A stretch of DNA of 14,550 nucleotides. It comes from Treponema sp. Lineage in GTDB: Bacteria; Spirochaetota; Spirochaetia; Treponematales; Treponemataceae. Below are positions 2,219 through 7,255 of this stretch, piece after piece (the stretch's first letter is position 1; each line of letters opens with the position of its first letter). Below the pieces are notes generated by a model. That model was not told where the DNA came from. It did no database searches and worked only from the letters and a program-made list of their open reading frames with translations. The stretch is from NCBI GenBank assembly GCA_003447785.1, contig DLYJ01000213.1, forward strand, positions 5,259 through 19,808, read 5' to 3'. Both the position numbers and the translations under genes were made by a program.

Positions 2219-2611
2219 ATGGCATTGAAAAAAGCGTTTTCTGCAGATAAAAAAAGCTGCAAAGTCACTTTTATCGTTGAAAAAGAAGCTTCTCAGGGAG
2301 CTAAAACAGTAACTATCGCCGGCGATTTTAACAGCTGGAGCAGTACAGAAACTCCTCTCAAGAAAGCAAAAGACGGTTCTTTCTCAGTAACCCTCGAACT
2401 TGAAGCAGGAAAAGAATATCAGTACCGCTATCTTCTGGATGGCAACAAGTGGGAAAACGACTGGAAAGCCGACAAATATATTCCTGCACCATTCTCTAAC
2501 ACAGATAACTCAGTAGTTGTTTGTATTGCTTCTGAAAAAGAAACAAAAAAAGCTGACAAACCAGCAAAACCAGCTGCAAAAAAAGCCCCTGCAAAGAAGG
2601 CTAAGAAATAA
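2219..2611 (+). CDS. Stand-alone glycogen-binding (CBM48/isoamylase N-terminal-like) protein
   Basis: A 130-residue soluble protein. Residues about 14-102 form one early-set beta-sandwich of the CBM48/AMPK-beta type: KVTFIVE, then TVTIAGDFNSWS, a middle PLKKAKDGSFSVTLEL, and YQYRYLLDGNKWENDW, with the aromatic residues (W of FNSW, Y of YRYLLDG, W of KWEND) expected to touch glucan. No catalytic domain follows, so it is probably a binding or adaptor protein for glycogen-like polysaccharide. The last 25 or so residues are a Lys/Ala/Pro tail (KADKPAKPAAKKAPAKKAKK) like histone-H1-type or nucleic-acid-binding tails. The start has a strong AAGGAG site, and the gene has its own promoter and terminator, so it is probably monocistronic and well expressed. 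Confidence 0.85.
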   Translation: MALKKAFSADKKSCKVTFIVEKEASQGAKTVTIAGDFNSWSSTETPLKKAKDGSFSVTLELEAGKEYQYRYLLDGNKWENDWKADKYIPAPFSNTDNSVVVCIASEKETKKADKPAKPAAKKAPAKKAKK

Positions 2612-2637
2612 GTTTTTTAAGTCCTGACTAAAAAACT

Positions 2638-2674
2638 AAAACCCGGTTGTGTGTGTTACAGCCGGGTTTTTTTT
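2638..2674. terminator. Strong intrinsic terminator, probably bidirectional
   Basis: AAAACCCGGTTGT (2638-2650) pairs with ACAGCCGGGTTTT (2658-2670): 13 bp with one G-T wobble and a 7-base loop, followed by a T tract to 2674. It ends the CBM48 transcript. The leftward gene at 2677-3012 stops only 2 bases away and an A-rich flank gives a T-rich tract on the other strand, so it can serve both genes. Confidence 0.85.
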
Positions 2675-2676
2675 GT

Positions 2677-3012
2677 TTATATAACATATTTCGTCAGGAC
2701 ATTTTTCTCTCTGTTATAAACAGTGAATTCACATTTTGTTTTTAAATTCAGAATCTCATCCTTAATATTATCTTCCATTTTTTGAATTTCAACTACAGAA
2801 TTATTTGATTTAAATTGATTGTAAAGATTACGTAAACGAAGATTTTCCTGTAATATCTGTAAGGGACTATCATATTCCTTAAATAATACAAGGAAATCTT
2901 TTTTATTCTCTTCATCAAAATCAAGAATTGATTTATCAAGCATATCTGCCCAGATACCTACAAAACGCCATTCGTATTCATTTCCTCGATGGAATAAAAC
3001 TGTACTATTCAT
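2677..3012 (-). CDS. Unrecognised 111-residue protein, inverted-repeat promoter
   Basis: I do not recognise the family. The N-terminus is aromatic and globular-looking (EYEWRFVGIWADMLD). From about residue 50 to 95 the sequence is charged and helical, with a probable coiled coil (QENLRLRNLYNQFK, EIQKMEDNIKDEILNL), and it ends in a beta-like TKCEFTVYNREKNVLTKYVI. No signal peptide or membrane span is seen. There is no SD site. The ATG lies exactly where transcription should begin downstream of an inverted-repeat promoter at 3019-3052, so the message is probably leaderless. The same promoter type precedes the flagellar-like mini-genes at 5091-6778, so it may belong to their regulon. Confidence 0.6.
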   Translation of the reverse strand: MNSTVLFHRGNEYEWRFVGIWADMLDKSILDFDEENKKDFLVLFKEYDSPLQILQENLRLRNLYNQFKSNNSVVEIQKMEDNIKDEILNLKTKCEFTVYNREKNVLTKYVI

Positions 3013-3018
3013 AATTAC

Positions 3019-3052
3019 ATTATGAATTCACTGACTCTCAAAAAATGAGTGT
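3019..3052 (-). promoter_or_regulatory. Inverted-repeat promoter element A
   Basis: Read leftward: ACACTCA-N5-TGAGAGT (3052-3034), then 9 bases, then CATAAT (3024-3019), then 6 bases to the ATG at 3012. The repeat covers the usual -35 region (here CATTTT, unlike TTGACA). It shares its arms and the 9-bp spacing with the elements at 3069, 5628, 6231 and 6805. Confidence 0.65.
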
Positions 3053-3068
3053 GTAAATTTATTTTTAT

Positions 3069-3102
3069 ACTTGCGTTATATGAGAGGATTATCTATTAGT
3101 AT
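3069..3102 (+). promoter_or_regulatory. Inverted-repeat promoter element F (rightward)
   Basis: ACTTGCG-N5-TGAGAGG (3069-3087), a 9-base gap, then the -10-like TAGTAT (3097-3102). Transcription would start near 3109, just before the AAGGAG site of the gene at 3125. It is the most diverged copy of the element family and the only rightward one. With element A it forms a divergent pair. Confidence 0.5.
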
Positions 3103-3124
3103 TTTACTATAAGGAGAATTTAAA

Positions 3125-3316
3125 ATGATGCCGTATGGAAGTATTATAAGGTACACAGGAAGAGACTATATTAATGGATTTAAAAATGATTATACACCTC
3201 CTGTGTTTGGGGTTAATAAAATTGGTATTTATGATGAACGAGCTAAGTGTTATATAAAACCAACCCAAAAGGTCAGTTTTGCTGAGTTATTGCAACAAGA
3301 GGTTGAAAAGGATTAA
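3125..3316 (+). CDS. Small unrecognised protein (63 residues)
   Basis: An AAGGAG site at 3111-3116 lies 8 bases before the ATG at 3125 (a second ATG follows at once), so translation is well supported. The product has no signal peptide or membrane span. The first 45 residues are rich in Tyr, Gly and Lys (YGSIIRYTGRDYINGF) and look like a small beta fold. The end, SFAELLQQEVEKD, is an acidic amphipathic helix. No family is recognised. It is transcribed away from the 111-residue gene at 2677-3012 from a divergent pair of inverted-repeat promoters, and a hairpin terminator follows. Confidence 0.6.
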   Translation: MMPYGSIIRYTGRDYINGFKNDYTPPVFGVNKIGIYDERAKCYIKPTQKVSFAELLQQEVEKD

Positions 3317-3333
3317 TAAATAGTCATTTTTTA

Positions 3334-3396
3334 CACTCCCTGCAAGTGATTTTAAAAATGGACTCTTGCAAGGAGTGAGAGAATATTTTTATTTTT
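3334..3396. terminator. Hairpin terminator between converging genes
   Basis: CACTCCCTGCAAG (3334-3346) pairs with CTTGCAAGGAGTG (3365-3377), 12 of 13 positions, with an 18-base loop. A T-rich run (ATATTTTTATTTTT) follows on the plus strand. It ends the 63-residue gene and lies 11 bases beyond the stop of the leftward HNH gene. Confidence 0.65.
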
Positions 3397-4024
3397 CAAT
3401 ATTTCTGTTTTTATCAGAAAATACAAAGAACCCATGCGCTTTTGAGTGCTCTCTTGGTTCAAGAAGAATTAAATTATCAGGCCTGCAATCATAACCATTA
3501 TTATTAATATGATGTATGTCTAATTTTTTGTCCAACAAAGCAGGAAAGAATCCATAAACTATAAAGTAATAAGAACATTTATTTACTTTATCACCTTTAA
3601 ATTCAAACTCAGGTTCATTCAAATAATGTTTCATTTTAAGATAACCTTTATACAAATCTTTTGGATCTTCATCTTGGAAAACTAGACGATATTTTTCTTT
3701 TTTGTTAGGGCGATGTTTTATGCGGCCATAATTGCTTACCAAATAGTTTTTATCTTTATATCCAGCTACTTCTGCCCAAATTTCTTTTGTTTCACTACCA
3801 TAAACTTCTTTTATAAGTTCTACAGGAATTTCTTCTTCAGGATAATTATAAATTTTTGCATATTTATCTTTAATAAACTTACGAACCTCTTCTGGAGTTT
3901 TCGATGAATAATTATTCGCTGAAGTCCGTAATTCATAAAGCGTATAAATTCTTTCTTGATAACCTTTGTATTTTGTTTGTTCTAGTAAACCTTCATTTAA
4001 CAAATCTTTGATTTTATCGTCCAT
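3389..4024 (-). CDS. HNH endonuclease with NUMOD4-like motif
   Basis: A 211-residue protein of the phage/homing HNH type. Residues about 81-103 (EIWAEVAGYKDKNYLVSNYG then RIK) match NUMOD4, the short DNA-contact motif beside many HNH nucleases. Residues about 168-199 carry the nuclease core: LDIHHINNNGYDCRPDNLILL, with His171/His172, Asn184 of the RPDNL motif, and His193/His197 for metal binding. The first 75 residues are charged, helical and unassigned. The ATG has a GAGGAG site, and the gene starts 19 bases after the WYL regulator gene, so the two are probably co-transcribed. It could be a mobile homing endonuclease or a domesticated nuclease. No intron or intein is seen nearby. Confidence 0.8.
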   Translation of the reverse strand: MDDKIKDLLNEGLLEQTKYKGYQERIYTLYELRTSANNYSSKTPEEVRKFIKDKYAKIYNYPEEEIPVELIKEVYGSETKEIWAEVAGYKDKNYLVSNYGRIKHRPNKKEKYRLVFQDEDPKDLYKGYLKMKHYLNEPEFEFKGDKVNKCSYYFIVYGFFPALLDKKLDIHHINNNGYDCRPDNLILLEPREHSKAHGFFVFSDKNRNIEK

Positions 4025-4043
4025 ATTCTTTTTCTCCTCTAAA

Positions 4044-5063
4044 TTACAAATTGGCGTTTTTCATCATACACAAAACATTCTCTTTCCATTCTTCAACAAG
4101 TTGCGGCGGTTCGAGCGGGGTAATCCACTGGCCCTGGCTCATTATCCAGTTTAGTACCGGATAATATTGGTTGCTTGAGAAAGTCATTATAACTATGCCG
4201 TCTGGCTGCGTTTCAAACTTCTGGTCATCAGTCCATTTGTAGGTTTTGATGTAATTAACTGTTACATCTCTGTTGATCCTGATTTTGAAATTGAAAGTTT
4301 CACTGCCGATATAACGGCCGAAATTTCCTTTTGCCCTTTTCAGGTATGCACTTTCTTCCGGCGGTTCAAAGGTTTCTTTTCTTACTTCCACGTTACTTAT
4401 TAATGGAAGATTAAAAAACTTTTCTTTTTTTTCTTTTGGAACATTTCCATACAATGACCACATACCCTGATAATAAAGAAGCTGCCATGGCGCAATGGTA
4501 TATTTTTTAGTCTGTTCGTTCCCATCATAAAAACTGTAATCAAAAGTTATATATTGATTTTTTGCAAGGGCAGTTTCTATATTGTCCCAGACTTCATTGG
4601 ATATCTGAACAGGTTCCATACCGATAAACGAAATCTTTTTTGAAAACTCTTTACCGAGTGAAATTTGCGGATCAGGTTCGATATTATCAGAAAAGTTTGC
4701 AAATACTTCGATGGCCTGATTGTACAAAGGAGTGCCGTGAAGAGACTCTATAAGATTCTGCATTAAGCGTGCTGCAATAATCTGCTTGCCTGTTGAAAGA
4801 TGCCCGGGAACCCGAAATGTTGGTCTTGTATAATAATATCCTTTATGGAAGCGGTCATATTCAAGAACAAACTCGGCTCCAAAGTCCATACGGAGAGCAT
4901 CTAAATCGCGGTGAACTGTTGCTTCTGAAACCTTGAATTCTCTTTTAAAATCTTCAACATTAGGATAAGTACCACTTGCAATCATTTCATCATATCTTAC
5001 GATACGTTTGAATGTTGCAAAGCTCTCATGTTCTTTATTTAAGTTAGATTTTTTTTGTTTCAT
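4044..5063 (-). CDS. WYL-domain transcriptional regulator
   Basis: A 339-residue DNA-binding regulator. Residues about 15-75 are a winged helix (RYDEMIASGTYPNVEDFKRE, then VSEATVHRDLDALR, typical of the DeoR-like/HTH_11 heads of this family). Residues about 165-240 are the ligand-sensing WYL domain, seen in ITFDYSFYDG and YTIAPWQLLYYQGMWSLYG. Residues about 255-335 fit the WCX extension. WYL regulators often bind palindromes and frequently control defence or accessory genes; the ligand here is unknown. The ATG has a CTGGAGA site. The gene starts 27 bases after the MotA-like gene and is followed 19 bases later by the HNH gene, suggesting one operon. It is a candidate reader of the inverted-repeat promoters in this block (inference). 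Confidence 0.88.
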   Translation of the reverse strand: MKQKKSNLNKEHESFATFKRIVRYDEMIASGTYPNVEDFKREFKVSEATVHRDLDALRMDFGAEFVLEYDRFHKGYYYTRPTFRVPGHLSTGKQIIAARLMQNLIESLHGTPLYNQAIEVFANFSDNIEPDPQISLGKEFSKKISFIGMEPVQISNEVWDNIETALAKNQYITFDYSFYDGNEQTKKYTIAPWQLLYYQGMWSLYGNVPKEKKEKFFNLPLISNVEVRKETFEPPEESAYLKRAKGNFGRYIGSETFNFKIRINRDVTVNYIKTYKWTDDQKFETQPDGIVIMTFSSNQYYPVLNWIMSQGQWITPLEPPQLVEEWKENVLCMMKNANL

Positions 5064-5090
5064 TTTGAATCTCCAGAAACAAATATAAAT

Positions 5091-5573
5091 TTAATTATTA
5101 TAGCATCTATTTTGCTGAAAATGTTCAATAATACTTTGACAAGAAGATACAGCATCTATTCCAATAAATGATGCAGCATATTCTGTCGTAAGCTTTGGTG
5201 ATTCACCCCTTTGAATATTTATAATTCCACTAGAAAAAATTCTCATGAATAATTTAGTCTTTTTATTTACAGAACTATATTCAATAATATTATCTGCTAA
5301 ATTTCTTATAGTGTCATTTTCAATTCCATTGGTTAATAACAGAAGAAAATATATTGCAAATTTTTCTTCAATGCCTCTTAAAGGTCTCCTATTATTTGGG
5401 AGTATAAAAGATGTTTTTTTTGTTTTTTCATCTGTTTTGATATATTCCTCAAACTCTAATATACCTTTTGTTCTGGCGATTTCAAACAATTCATAAACAA
5501 GACTTACAGTATTAAATAGATGCTGCTTTGTAGAAATAGGCAGAAAACATGATTTTGTTTTAGATAAATTCAT
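5091..5573 (-). CDS. MotA-like cytoplasmic domain protein lacking membrane segments
   Basis: A 160-residue soluble protein whose motifs follow the order of the MotA stator cytoplasmic parts. Residues 28-43 (ELFEIARTKGILEFEE) match the MotA loop pattern 'xxARxxGLLALEE'. Residues 76-97 (FLLLLTNGIENDTIRNLADN and on) match 'xxxLxVDGxDPExIRxIL'. Residues 113-136 (FSSGIINIQRGESPKLTTEY) match the MotA C-terminal 'xxEGILxIQxGxNPRxLxExL'. In MotA the latter two are separated by TM3 and TM4, which are absent here, as are TM1 and TM2. An inserted basic segment at about 47-66 is unusual. It has an AGAGAGG SD site and an inverted-repeat promoter. The homology is read by eye; without membrane helices it cannot conduct ions, so it might bind a FliG-like partner. 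Confidence 0.5.
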   Translation of the reverse strand: MNLSKTKSCFLPISTKQHLFNTVSLVYELFEIARTKGILEFEEYIKTDEKTKKTSFILPNNRRPLRGIEEKFAIYFLLLLTNGIENDTIRNLADNIIEYSSVNKKTKLFMRIFSSGIINIQRGESPKLTTEYAASFIGIDAVSSCQSIIEHFQQNRCYNN

Positions 5574-5627
5574 AATAGTTTACCTCTCTTTATAAGTTGT
5601 GTTTATATCTTTTTCAAAGATAAGGAT

Positions 5628-5661
5628 AATATAATACTTCAAACTCTCAAATAATGAGAGC
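5628..5661 (-). promoter_or_regulatory. Inverted-repeat promoter element B
   Basis: Leftward: GCTCTCA-N5-TGAGAGT (5661-5643; the inner 6 bp pair perfectly), a 9-base gap, then TATATT (5633-5628). Transcription would start near 5621, giving a 48-base leader to the MotA-like gene. The 9-base gap (TTGAAGTAT) is almost identical to that of element C (TTGAAATAT). Confidence 0.65.
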
Positions 5662-5669
5662 CTAAAAAA

Positions 5670-6224
5670 TTATTTTAAAATAAATCCTCTGGAAAGATTT
5701 GAGGAATTATTTAATCCAATAATGCAAGCATTTTGTTTTTTAAGGTAAAATTCAAAATCATTTATCCTGGTTTTAGAAACATAATCACAAAATGTCAGTA
5801 GAATCTTTGGTTTAGTTATAAAACTAAATTGAGATAATACAGACTCTGCTATAGAGAAATCCATAAAAGCTGGAATTGTTAATATTGGATTAAAATTGAA
5901 GATTCCGGAATTGAAAAATTCAAAGATATATTTCTGGTCTTTTAGAGAAGAACCGAAATCTATGAAATAGGTTGTATCAGATTCATAATTAAAACCTGTA
6001 AGATTTTCTTGGAATTCCGATTCAAAAGGAATTTTTGTTATTTCGCAAAACTTTTCACAAATATTATTTTGACCCAAAGTACAATAGTTTGCAGAAATTA
6101 AAACTATTTTGTTTCCAGAATCTTTTTCTTTAAGTTTGTTAAAACATAACTTAAACAAGACATTAGTCTTTCCGCTTCCATACTGGCCATAAATCATATA
6201 AATAGTTGGTTTTAATATTTTCAT
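5670..6224 (-). CDS. FlhF-like SRP-family GTPase domain with degenerate switch motifs
   Basis: A 184-residue protein equivalent to the G domain of FlhF, the SRP-type GTPase that places flagella. Motifs in order are a P-loop GQYGSGKT at 13-20, KIVLISANYCTLGQNNICEK from 39 (FlhF: VALxTxDTYRIxAxEQL), IPFE at 65-68 (FlhF: VPLxV), TYFIDFGSSLKDQKYIFEFF from 85 (FlhF: VFIDTAGRxxxDxxxVxEL), FITKPKILLTFCDY from 135 (FlhF: PVxKFIFTKLDE) and a final CIIGLNNSSNL (FlhF: ISYITNGQNV). The P-loop is intact, but DTYR, DTAGR and TKLDE are replaced, so GTP hydrolysis and base specificity are doubtful. The N and B domains are absent. No SD site is present; the ATG coincides with the predicted transcription start of element C, so the message is probably leaderless. 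Confidence 0.6.
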   Translation of the reverse strand: MKILKPTIYMIYGQYGSGKTNVLFKLCFNKLKEKDSGNKIVLISANYCTLGQNNICEKFCEITKIPFESEFQENLTGFNYESDTTYFIDFGSSLKDQKYIFEFFNSGIFNFNPILTIPAFMDFSIAESVLSQFSFITKPKILLTFCDYVSKTRINDFEFYLKKQNACIIGLNNSSNLSRGFILK

Positions 6225-6230
6225 AAGAAT

Positions 6231-6264
6231 ACTTTAATATTTCAAACTCTCATGAAATGAGTGA
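6231..6264 (-). promoter_or_regulatory. Inverted-repeat promoter element C
   Basis: Leftward: TCACTCA-N5-TGAGAGT (6264-6246), a 9-base gap, then TAAAGT (6236-6231), then 6 bases to the ATG at 6224. The spacing from repeat to ATG is identical to element A, supporting leaderless transcription for both. Confidence 0.6.
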
Positions 6265-6298
6265 GGTGGGCGGATATAAATTTCCTGACACTCCTAAC

Positions 6299-6778
6299 CT
6301 ATCTGATTGTAATCTTACCGTCTCTATGTAAATTCATTACTTCTTTTACAACTTCCGCCTGTGCATCCTCAACTTCTTCCAAAGTCAGGGGACCTGCAAA
6401 TTCCATATCTTCTTTAAGCATATCCGCTGCCCTTTCAGATAAGTTGCAAAAAATCCTGTCCAATAGATCTACTGATGCCCTTTTTAAAGCTTTTGTAAGT
6501 ACTGTTGTATCAGTTTTGCCAAGTAATAATTTTATTGAGTTATCATCCAGCAGTTTAATGTCTTCAAATTCAAAAAGACATTTATCAAGCCTTTGCTGGA
6601 AAACAGGAGTTTCCCTTATTTTTTTTAATAAAGTTTCAAAATCCAGATTAAAAGTTAAAAGAATATTTTCTATTTCTTCGATTACTTTCCAGTCAGCCTT
6701 ATTTAACCCCAGAGCAAATCTCTCAATTCTTGCACTTCTGTTTTCGTCAATAATTTCAATAGCAGATTTATTTATCAT
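6299..6778 (-). CDS. Free-standing FliG C-terminal (torque) domain protein
   Basis: A 159-residue protein. Residues 70-157 match the C-terminal domain of the flagellar switch protein FliG: FEFEDIKLLDDNSIKLLL, TKALKRASVDLLDRIFCNLS, ERAADMLKEDMEFAGPLTLE and EVEDAQAEVV, ending in DGKITI. By spacing, the charged torque residues of E. coli FliG (K264, R281, D288, D289, R297) correspond to K99, R116, E123, D124 and T132, so four keep their charge and one is lost. The FliF-binding N domain and the EHPQ motif of the middle domain are absent. Residues 1-65 are helical and unassigned. A GAGGAGG SD site precedes the ATG. This is not a broken gene: it has its own start, SD site and promoter element D. 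It cannot join the rotor through FliF by itself. Confidence 0.75.
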   Translation of the reverse strand: MINKSAIEIIDENRSARIERFALGLNKADWKVIEEIENILLTFNLDFETLLKKIRETPVFQQRLDKCLFEFEDIKLLDDNSIKLLLGKTDTTVLTKALKRASVDLLDRIFCNLSERAADMLKEDMEFAGPLTLEEVEDAQAEVVKEVMNLHRDGKITIR

Positions 6779-6804
6779 ATGCGCTGCCTCCTCAAACTGA
6801 TATG

Positions 6805-6838
6805 AATATACACAGGCAGACTTGCATAAAATGAGAGT
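6805..6838 (-). promoter_or_regulatory. Inverted-repeat promoter element D
   Basis: Leftward: ACTCTCA-N5-TGCAAGT (6838-6820), a 9-base gap, then TATATT (6810-6805), followed by a short leader with GAGGAGG before the ATG at 6778. The right arm is diverged (TGCAAGT instead of TGAGAGT), but the spacing is identical to the other copies. The rest of 6779-6898 is AT-rich and shows no GC-stem terminator. Confidence 0.55.
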
Positions 6839-6898
6839 GTGAAAAAAATTTATGATTTTTTTTTTAATTAAACTAATGAGTATTTCTGGGGCTTGTTT

Positions 6899-7255
6899 TT
6901 ACTTATCGTCCTTGAGCCACTGACCAAGAACTTTAGCAAGTGCTTCAGGATCAGCCATGGCCATTTCCCTTGCATTATGCTGAGCGCTTGATTCGCCGGT
7001 CTTGATGAACGAAGCGTGCGGAACTTCCTTATAAATGCCGCGGAGTTCGCCATAAGCCTTGTATTCTTCCAGAACAAGATTTTCGCGGGCAACCTGGGTT
7101 TCATTCCACGGGTCATACTTTCCGCCAAGGTTTTTCATGGATTTTCTGATTTTAGTCAGTTCATCATTGTTAAGATTAAGACGCGCAAGAATCGGAGCGC
7201 TCGCCTCAGAGCCAAGTTCTCCCAGCAAAATCGCAATTTTATCGTACCCGGTCAT
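6899..7255 (-). CDS. FliG N-domain joined to a FliF-type C-terminal tail
   Basis: A 118-residue protein. Residues 1-75 (MTGYDKIAILLGELGSEASA, then LARLNLNNDELTKIRKSMKNL and VARENLVLEEYKAYG) match the FliG N domain pattern 'KAAILLxxLGxExSAxIxxxL...LxxEIxxLGxV...VLEEF'. Residues 95-117 (AREMAMADPEALAKVLGQWL then KDD) match the C-terminal tail of the MS-ring protein FliF ('xREMxxxNPExVAQVIRxWLxxD'), the peptide that folds into FliG-N to dock the switch. This would be a self-contained FliF-tail/FliG-N unit. Start: an ATG 21 codons further upstream (7318) is open, but ATG 7255 has GGGAGG 4 bases upstream and begins exactly at the FliG-N fold. The gene has a TTGCCG-N17-TATAAT promoter just past ftsK, and its base composition resembles ftsK rather than the AT-rich block. 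Confidence 0.72.
   Translation of the reverse strand: MTGYDKIAILLGELGSEASAPILARLNLNNDELTKIRKSMKNLGGKYDPWNETQVARENLVLEEYKAYGELRGIYKEVPHASFIKTGESSAQHNAREMAMADPEALAKVLGQWLKDDK

Follow-up and report, generated by a model that had tools for sequence, protein, structure and literature searches.

Islands of single-domain flagellar genes beside a WYL regulator in Treponema, and what they might do to the motor

Introduction

Some WYL regulators, of the BrxR/CapW type, are found in defence (PMC9122601, PMC9122588), and flagellar motors can be stopped via FliG or MotA by a clutch or brake such as EpsE or YcgR (PMC3000366, PMC12713396), as far as the accessible parts of these papers describe them. In the motor itself, MotA R90 and E98 contact FliG D289 and R281 (PMC7564593, from the accessible part of that paper). 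Here we describe a locus with a WYL regulator and copies of the motor's own domains. It lies in a 14,550-nucleotide stretch from Treponema sp. (positions 5,259 to 19,808 of contig DLYJ01000213.1, GenBank assembly GCA_003447785.1), which we call the window; coordinates count from its first letter. Within an inserted island of this window, separate genes encode single domains of FliG, FlhF, and MotA (P2, P3, and P4), and relatives of the adjacent WYL regulator recur in other Treponema near such pieces of flagellar proteins. Spirochaete flagella are periplasmic.

Results

An inserted island encodes lone domains of FliG, FlhF, and MotA

In the window, about 4.3 kilobases (kb) separate a gene with a CBM48 domain from P1, which is a resident gene (see below). 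In the relatives G059 (L079/L052) and G052 (L053), the CBM48 gene directly adjoins P1, without the island. The GC content, in 1-kb steps, is 26-38% across 2501-6500 versus 39-48% in the flanks. Leftward from P2, the genes of the island are P2, P3, P4, the WYL regulator, a NUMOD4/HNH protein, and two small open reading frames (ORFs), of 63 and 111 amino acids (aa):

2612..6898, no strand: inserted island of about 4.3 kb, flanked by the CBM48 gene and P1
6299..6778, minus strand: P2, FliG C-terminal domain protein, 159 aa, without FliG-N (Pfam, PDB, tree)
5670..6224, minus strand: P3, FlhF NG-like P-loop protein, 184 aa (family profile A1)
5091..5573, minus strand: P4, MotA cytoplasmic domain with the hairpin of transmembrane helices 3 and 4 (TM3-4) missing, 160 aa (family profile A2)
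4044..5063, minus strand: WYL regulator (HTH-WYL-WCX), 339 aa (Pfam, PADLOC)
3389..4024, minus strand: NUMOD4 + HNH_3 endonuclease-like protein, 211 aa (Pfam NUMOD4 8.1e-8, HNH_3 1.2e-6)
3125..3316, plus strand: small 63-aa ORF, oriented divergently to the 111-aa one (possible counterpart at 2682-2957 of contig L190, a likeness seen by eye)
2677..3012, minus strand: 111-aa ORF with no assigned function (clustering, relative in L190)

The original prediction, made from the letters of the window and a list of its ORFs, described P1 to P4 as a single cluster of four flagellar genes: a FliG-N/FliF-tail protein, FliG-C, an FlhF-like domain, and a MotA cytoplasmic domain. All four ORFs are present at the predicted positions and intact, and profile searches found matches for all four families, as given gene by gene below. 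The single cluster did not hold up. P1 is resident, and the actual unit is P2, P3, and P4 with the WYL regulator, the HNH gene, and the two small ORFs.

P2 matches Pfam FliG_C (4.7e-27) and FliG structures in PDB (3e-20), as predicted. A profile of Treponema FliG matched it only at positions 241-343 of 353, so it is without the N-terminal (FliF-ring) and middle domains of FliG. In a tree, P2 groups with a fragment from T. porcinum (L111_11871, support 87/82). The tree did not show a single origin of the FliG pieces, which fall in many deep lineages; canonical FliG clusters tightly as one group (67/89). (An antisense ORF was called over P2 in L075, and P2 is outside our counts of loci and our 34-row alignment of FliG pieces; we included it by hand in the tree and in the comparison to the FliG profile.) Beside FliG pieces in two genomes (L062:3330-5036, L073:9842-11281), there is also a family of 479-568 aa with no assigned function.

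For P3, the identity holds at the level of the family. As a lone sequence its matches are ambiguous (RadA 0.013, FlhF 0.014, DEAD 0.021, and SRP54 0.033). With a profile of 6 members of its family (A1), the best match in PDB is FlhF (2px0, 2.8e-5), followed by FlhF again (8r9r, 0.0056) and SRP54 (0.35). Among the scored candidates, 142 are relatives of P3 at E ≤ 0.001, and 1 of the 120 that were listed was named FlhF by its source. The TKxD-type motif of P3, which confers specificity for GTP in FlhF, reads T-F-C-D, and the lysine is present in 0 of 41 family rows.

P4 alone gave a weak match to MotA1 (0.0068) and no match in Pfam, including MotA_ExbB. A profile of 6 members of its family (A2) matches MotA 6ysf at 1.5e-19, again in line with the prediction. 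The match is in two stretches, residues 78-136 and 216-250, with no match across residues 137-215, which fits the absence of TM3-4. These helices are absent in several MotA-like loci, and there are also fusions of a MotA-like domain to FliG-C (L064, P0051). The MotA-like proteins of G084 (L065) resemble P4 in being MotA cytoplasmic domains without TM3-4, and differ in having no WYL gene in the fetched stretch and in carrying EIDALL-type peptides and a DnaN-like part (by eye). Specifically, the MotA-like proteins of L065 (G084:C12; 8585-11411, 12604-13434, and 15327-16166) occur with FliM/FliN-like EIDALL peptides, one has a DnaN-like N-terminus (both by eye), and leucine-rich repeat proteins without evident signal peptides lie around them.

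The WYL regulator recurs near flagellar pieces

The WYL protein matches Pfam WYL above the cut-off (2e-8) and HTH_11 and WCX below theirs (0.0058 and 0.001), and PADLOC also identifies it as WYL (3.4e-20). It is 91% identical to a protein in T. porcinum and 88% identical to one in the metagenome-assembled genome RUI344. We searched GTDB representative genomes with a profile of this family (A3) and found 31 loci, all of them spirochaetal: Treponema where the genus is named, and otherwise Spirochaetaceae or Spirochaetia. They include loci in T. porcinum, T. ruminis, and T. bryantii XBD1002 and NK4A124, among others. We left out L188, which is just 29% identical, and counted the other 30.

At a whole-protein E value of 1e-4, and without counting a MotB-like match in L186, the fetched DNA contains a flagellar piece for 24 of these 30 WYL relatives. 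FliG pieces are present in 17, and the other pieces are FlhA-N, FlhA-C, FlhB-C, the FliI core, MotA, and FlhF. This search was not wholly blind, because A3 includes loci that were first noticed via FliG or MotA (L061, L068, and L072). Overall, other Treponema repeatedly have this WYL family close to pieces of FliG, FlhA, FlhB, FliI, MotA, or FlhF. If conserved co-occurrence is the question, as the original prediction suggested, then flagellar pieces do recur in related spirochaetes, and the exact set of four genes is found only here among the loci we examined.

We separately searched 118 genomes of the genus for the FlhA family. Among the matches listed, 11 of 16 that are FlhA-N only and 7 of 9 that are FlhA-C only have a listed WYL gene no more than 5 kb away; these counts were read by hand, three of the 16 are below the Pfam cut-off, and some carry stops. 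About 20 partial matches that resemble full-length FlhA at a contig end or with a frameshift were excluded, with the contig ends unchecked.

The pieces we found are all from the cytoplasmic or inner-membrane side of the flagellum (hook and filament were outside the set of profiles). Profiles for FliF, FliH, FliJ, FliL, MotB, FliP/Q/R, FliE, FlgB, and FlgC found no piece in the survey of loci. Motifs for catalysis or processing are frequently altered, as with TKxD above: NPTH is absent from all three aligned FlhB-C pieces, and Walker A is altered in one of the two FliI pieces (L066, by eye).

A palindrome shared by the pieces and the regulator

Upstream of P2, P3, and P4, we found the palindrome CTCTCAN5TGAGAG, which corresponds to the shared promoter element that had been proposed for three genes. 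A motif scan of the window gave five sites:

6821..6837, no strand: operator-like palindrome before P2, 2 mismatches
6247..6263, no strand: operator-like palindrome before P3, 1 mismatch
5644..5660, no strand: operator-like palindrome before P4, exact
3035..3051, no strand: operator-like palindrome between the divergent 111-aa and 63-aa ORFs, 1 mismatch
3365..3381, no strand: weak palindrome between converging genes, 2 mismatches, which may be due to chance

With up to 2 mismatches allowed, 0.41 sites would be expected in the window, and none of 200 shuffled sequences reached 5. In the organism's own 2.03-Mb genome (75% complete), just 4 sites have at most 1 mismatch; three are in the island (upstream of P3, upstream of P4, and in the gap that separates the small ORFs), and the fourth is outside it.

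In the relatives, we scanned the 150 bp upstream of genes for TNTCAN5TGANA with up to 1 mismatch. The operator was upstream of 18 of 41 genes for flagellar pieces (including the MotB-like match in L186), 23 of 33 WYL genes, 21 of 218 other nearby genes, and 9 of 86 genes that are over 6 kb away (pieces vs. distant genes, P = 3.6e-5, Fisher exact test). If only exact matches are considered, the counts are 9 of 41, 12 of 33, 7 of 218, and 7 of 86 (P = 0.03); all 7 of the distant genes are in L176 and L177, whose FliG pieces sit similarly far from the WYL gene. The half-site varies with the type of WYL protein: the window, L159, L160, and L190 have TCTCA, and most of the others with a match have TATCA. 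We infer that the palindrome is an operator bound by the WYL protein.

Gene company and mobile DNA

To describe the gene company of 28 WYL genes, we took the 148 nearest ORFs (of 222 within 4 kb) and excluded 20 by hand, among which are neighbors of the broken WYL gene in L186 and a number of short ORFs. The Pfam families of the remaining 128 ORFs (25 of 69 listed) include DUF6946 (12), HNH_3 (12), FliG_C (9), FlhA (6), AAA (6), NUMOD4 (5), REase-ARP (4), DUF6994 (4), MatE (3), and FlhB (2). In the fetched loci, the cluster of the NUMOD4/HNH protein has 12 members from 11 genomes. Among ten proteins that we submitted to PADLOC, it identified WYL, a homing endonuclease, and an IetA/TRIP13-like AAA protein. 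DnaB-like proteins in or near the islands were clustered in L061, L068, L118, L145, and L146, and the one that was scanned matches DnaB_C (1.4e-43). Near a more distant WYL gene, there is a 380-aa relative of FliM with a FliN-like C-terminal stretch (L119:759-1901, L125:6351-7493).

One contig that was called viral (L190, IMGVR_UViG_3300010282_000350) carries an FlhF piece, a WYL gene, an HNH gene, and an ORF weakly similar to FlhB-C (1.7e-7 when a custom profile was run on four sequences, and 0.0017 for the canonical profile). A phage-type primase (phrog_1829, 4e-125) lies about 4 kb from this island. The 111-aa ORF of the window has a relative on this contig (56% identity, with a ratio of nonsynonymous to synonymous substitution rates, dN/dS, of 0.21 at dS = 1.67), and it also clusters with L067_12892, which adjoins a FliG piece in G108. 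The 63-aa ORF had no match in a search of PHROGs.

To look for phage or plasmid cargo more generally, we searched with P2 (tblastn). This gave 4 Listeria phage records at 33.8% identity, without annotation, and 59 records in a plasmid collection, where every named one among the 20 listed is FliG; neither result is informative.

P1, a resident relative of FliG-N and the FliF tail

The gene next to the island encodes a different sort of hybrid:

6899..7255, minus strand: P1, FliG-N + FliF-tail protein, 118 aa, resident, outside the island (Pfam, family profiles, neighbourhood in relatives)

As predicted, the start of P1 resembles FliG-N (Pfam FliG_N 4.8e-6; 96% for the profile of its family) and its end resembles the FliF C-terminal tail (80% for the family profile, 1.5e-5, 27 columns). 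Because the CBM48 gene and P1 adjoin each other without the island in G059 and G052, P1 is resident, which rules it out as a member of the island unit. Unlike P2, P3, and P4, it has no copy of the palindrome upstream. A relative of P1 lies between fliF and fliG in G114 and G109. Hybrids of this kind, with about 115-140 aa, are present in 31 of 118 family genomes (for example, L078:9965-10354 and L080:8959-9372) and in 14 protein clusters in a large database. Possibly, the P1 family is an extra part at the joint between the MS-ring and the C-ring.

Discussion

What the pieces might do

Our leading explanation, which we hold tentatively, is that the pieces, under control of the WYL protein, act as competitive inhibitors and so disable both the flagellar motor and the export gate of the host, possibly as a form of defence. 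The WYL protein would bind the palindrome and repress the island until a signal arrives, for which DNA damage and phage infection are candidates. The pieces would then be made and would compete with the full-length flagellar parts: FliG-C pieces might engage the stators while not anchored to the rotor; MotA pieces might occupy the torque helix of FliG; FlhA-C, FlhB-C, and FliI pieces might poison the export gate; and FlhF pieces might disturb flagellar placement. Motility and export would halt while nuclease-type products act on DNA, and shutting down the motor might conserve energy or prevent an infected cell from moving on. In a fuller version of this proposal, the WYL-switched module is spread by mobile DNA among gut Treponema, and it halts the swimming of cells under stress or phage attack: alongside nucleases, it makes single-domain copies of rotor, stator, export-gate, and placement parts, which compete with the originals and disable the cell's flagella from within. 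As a whole, this seems to us possible, if somewhat doubtful.

Competitive inhibition is favored by the frequent loss of anchoring or catalytic features, by the retention of contact residues, and by the pieces' shared origin from the inner side of one machine; nuclease-like neighbors and a WYL gene favor a defence setting. For the contact residues (E. coli numbering), R34 and E42 of P4, which have the same spacing as MotA R90 and E98, are present in all 6 members of the P4 family. In a wider set that includes real MotA proteins, the arginine is present in 23 of 24 and the glutamate in 21 of 24, with aspartate in the other 3. The FliG pieces keep the equivalents of R281 in 28 of 34 cases, D289 in 27, and R297 in 15.

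Several observations weigh against inhibition or its defence setting. The equivalents of R281 and D289 are conserved no better than the core of the domain (17th and 21st of 93 columns), the 34 rows behind these counts are not independent (some are near-copies and one region is present twice), and R297 is changed in 19 of the 34 pieces, with threonine at that position in P2. The P-loop lysine is present in all 33 rows of the FlhF-piece family that cover that stretch; because P3 keeps its P-loop, it may act as a nucleoside triphosphatase. DnaB-like, RNase III-like, and (by eye) DnaN-like genes are in or near islands, and therefore not all of the cargo is flagellar. Among the ten proteins, no complete or known defence system was recognised by PADLOC. 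Within 150 bp, 23 of the 41 piece genes have no operator; at least some of these are later genes of operons. Six of the 30 WYL loci have no piece: L161, L164, and L187 are on contigs of under 8 kb, the WYL gene is cut in L185 and broken in L186, and neither circumstance applies to L167. Six further loci, whose WYL genes are more distant (L122, L123, and L127-L130), have no flagellar piece either. Conversely, some fetched stretches (L062-L067, L071, L073, L074, L143, and L153) contain pieces but lack a WYL gene, and G073 and G115, which have the P2/P3 layout, have broken WYL genes.

Alternative explanations

Two other explanations fit nearly as well as inhibition. The pieces could be decoys or sensors for defence, which mimic flagellar parts that are targeted by phages or by toxins of rivals, so that capture of the attacker protects the motor or triggers the nuclease-type genes. 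This is possible, if somewhat doubtful. The nuclease-like and AAA families near the WYL gene, the IMG/VR contig with its island close to a phage-type primase, and the large variety of pieces between islands, as an arms race would give, are what we would expect of decoys. However, we know of no phage protein that acts against these flagellar parts in spirochaetes, although we did not search for one, and our reading of the loci, without a systematic check, turned up no nuclease-fused piece. To about the same limited degree, we believe that the domains might have been repurposed outside of the flagellum as scaffolds, adaptors, or parts of rings, for example to guide remodelling ATPases of the AAA or MoxR/vWA kinds. 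In eight loci (L120, L143, L144, L145, L146, L148, L166, and L168), an AAA gene from a single family is no more than about 4 kb from FlhA-N, and FliG pieces adjoin this family in L115, L180, and L184; one of its members is the IetA/TRIP13-like protein. In T. bryantii islands, FlhA-C and FlhB-C come after MoxR and vWA genes, and the MotA-like/FliG-C fusions also fit with repurposing. On the other hand, the native contact residues between MotA and FliG are kept, and the pieces all come from one side of one machine, at least within our set of profiles.

The same neighbors raise the idea that the pieces bring in a nuclease or an ATPase of the AAA or MoxR/vWA kind, so that the flagellar complex of the host is dismantled and not just blocked. 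We consider this improbable: the island in the window has no AAA gene of that family, and dismantling requires a physical link, of which we saw none. Least probable of all, by our estimate, is that the pieces are debris, or fragments of flagellar genes that were caught by mobile DNA and are still to be lost. There are signs of decay, as the WYL genes are broken in G073, G115, L184, and L186, the FliG piece is split in L184, and transposase-like ORFs (by eye) lie beside the T. porcinum island. But the ORFs are intact, several MotA-like loci share the absence of TM3-4, the operator is shared, and dN/dS is 0.06-0.41 in 16 of 17 comparisons of pieces (the pairs exclude P2 and P4, and several dS values are near saturation). 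The exception is a nearly identical pair of FlhA-N pieces (0.79, at dS = 0.01), which, like the saturation, weakens the case for functional pieces. Decay is thus disfavored, as the original prediction had argued.

If the pieces do inhibit the motor, they would be a regulated shut-off of motility by self-mimicry, on behalf of the cell or of its mobile DNA, and they would link defence-type regulators to motility. They would also be natural single-domain reagents for the contacts between MotA and FliG and for the export contacts of FlhA and FlhB. If they are decoys, they would point to unrecognised factors, from phages or rivals, that act on the base of the flagellum. The islands are present in the named species T. 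bryantii, T. porcinum, and T. ruminis, which opens the question to experiment.

Comparison to known systems

We found no description of such islands in a literature search whose coverage of subscription papers and preprints was thin, so on this limited basis, the islands appear to be of a new kind. Like the WYL regulators of the BrxR/CapW type, as the accessible parts of those papers present them, the regulator has an HTH-WYL-WCX architecture, has nuclease-like genes alongside, and has a palindrome before the regulator and its presumed target genes; here, in contrast, the genes with the palindrome include pieces of the host's own flagellum, and no known defence system was recognised. The outcome that we propose, a motor that is stopped via FliG or MotA, is like that of the EpsE or YcgR clutch or brake. 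As far as those sources go, EpsE is glycosyltransferase-like and YcgR is an effector of cyclic di-GMP, whereas the candidates here are copies of the motor's own domains. Finally, each single domain is homologous to part of canonical FliG, MotA, FlhF, FlhA, FlhB, or FliI, but in the islands, the domains stand alone, outside of flagellar operons, and the anchors to the membrane or the ring are missing except in the FlhA-N pieces.

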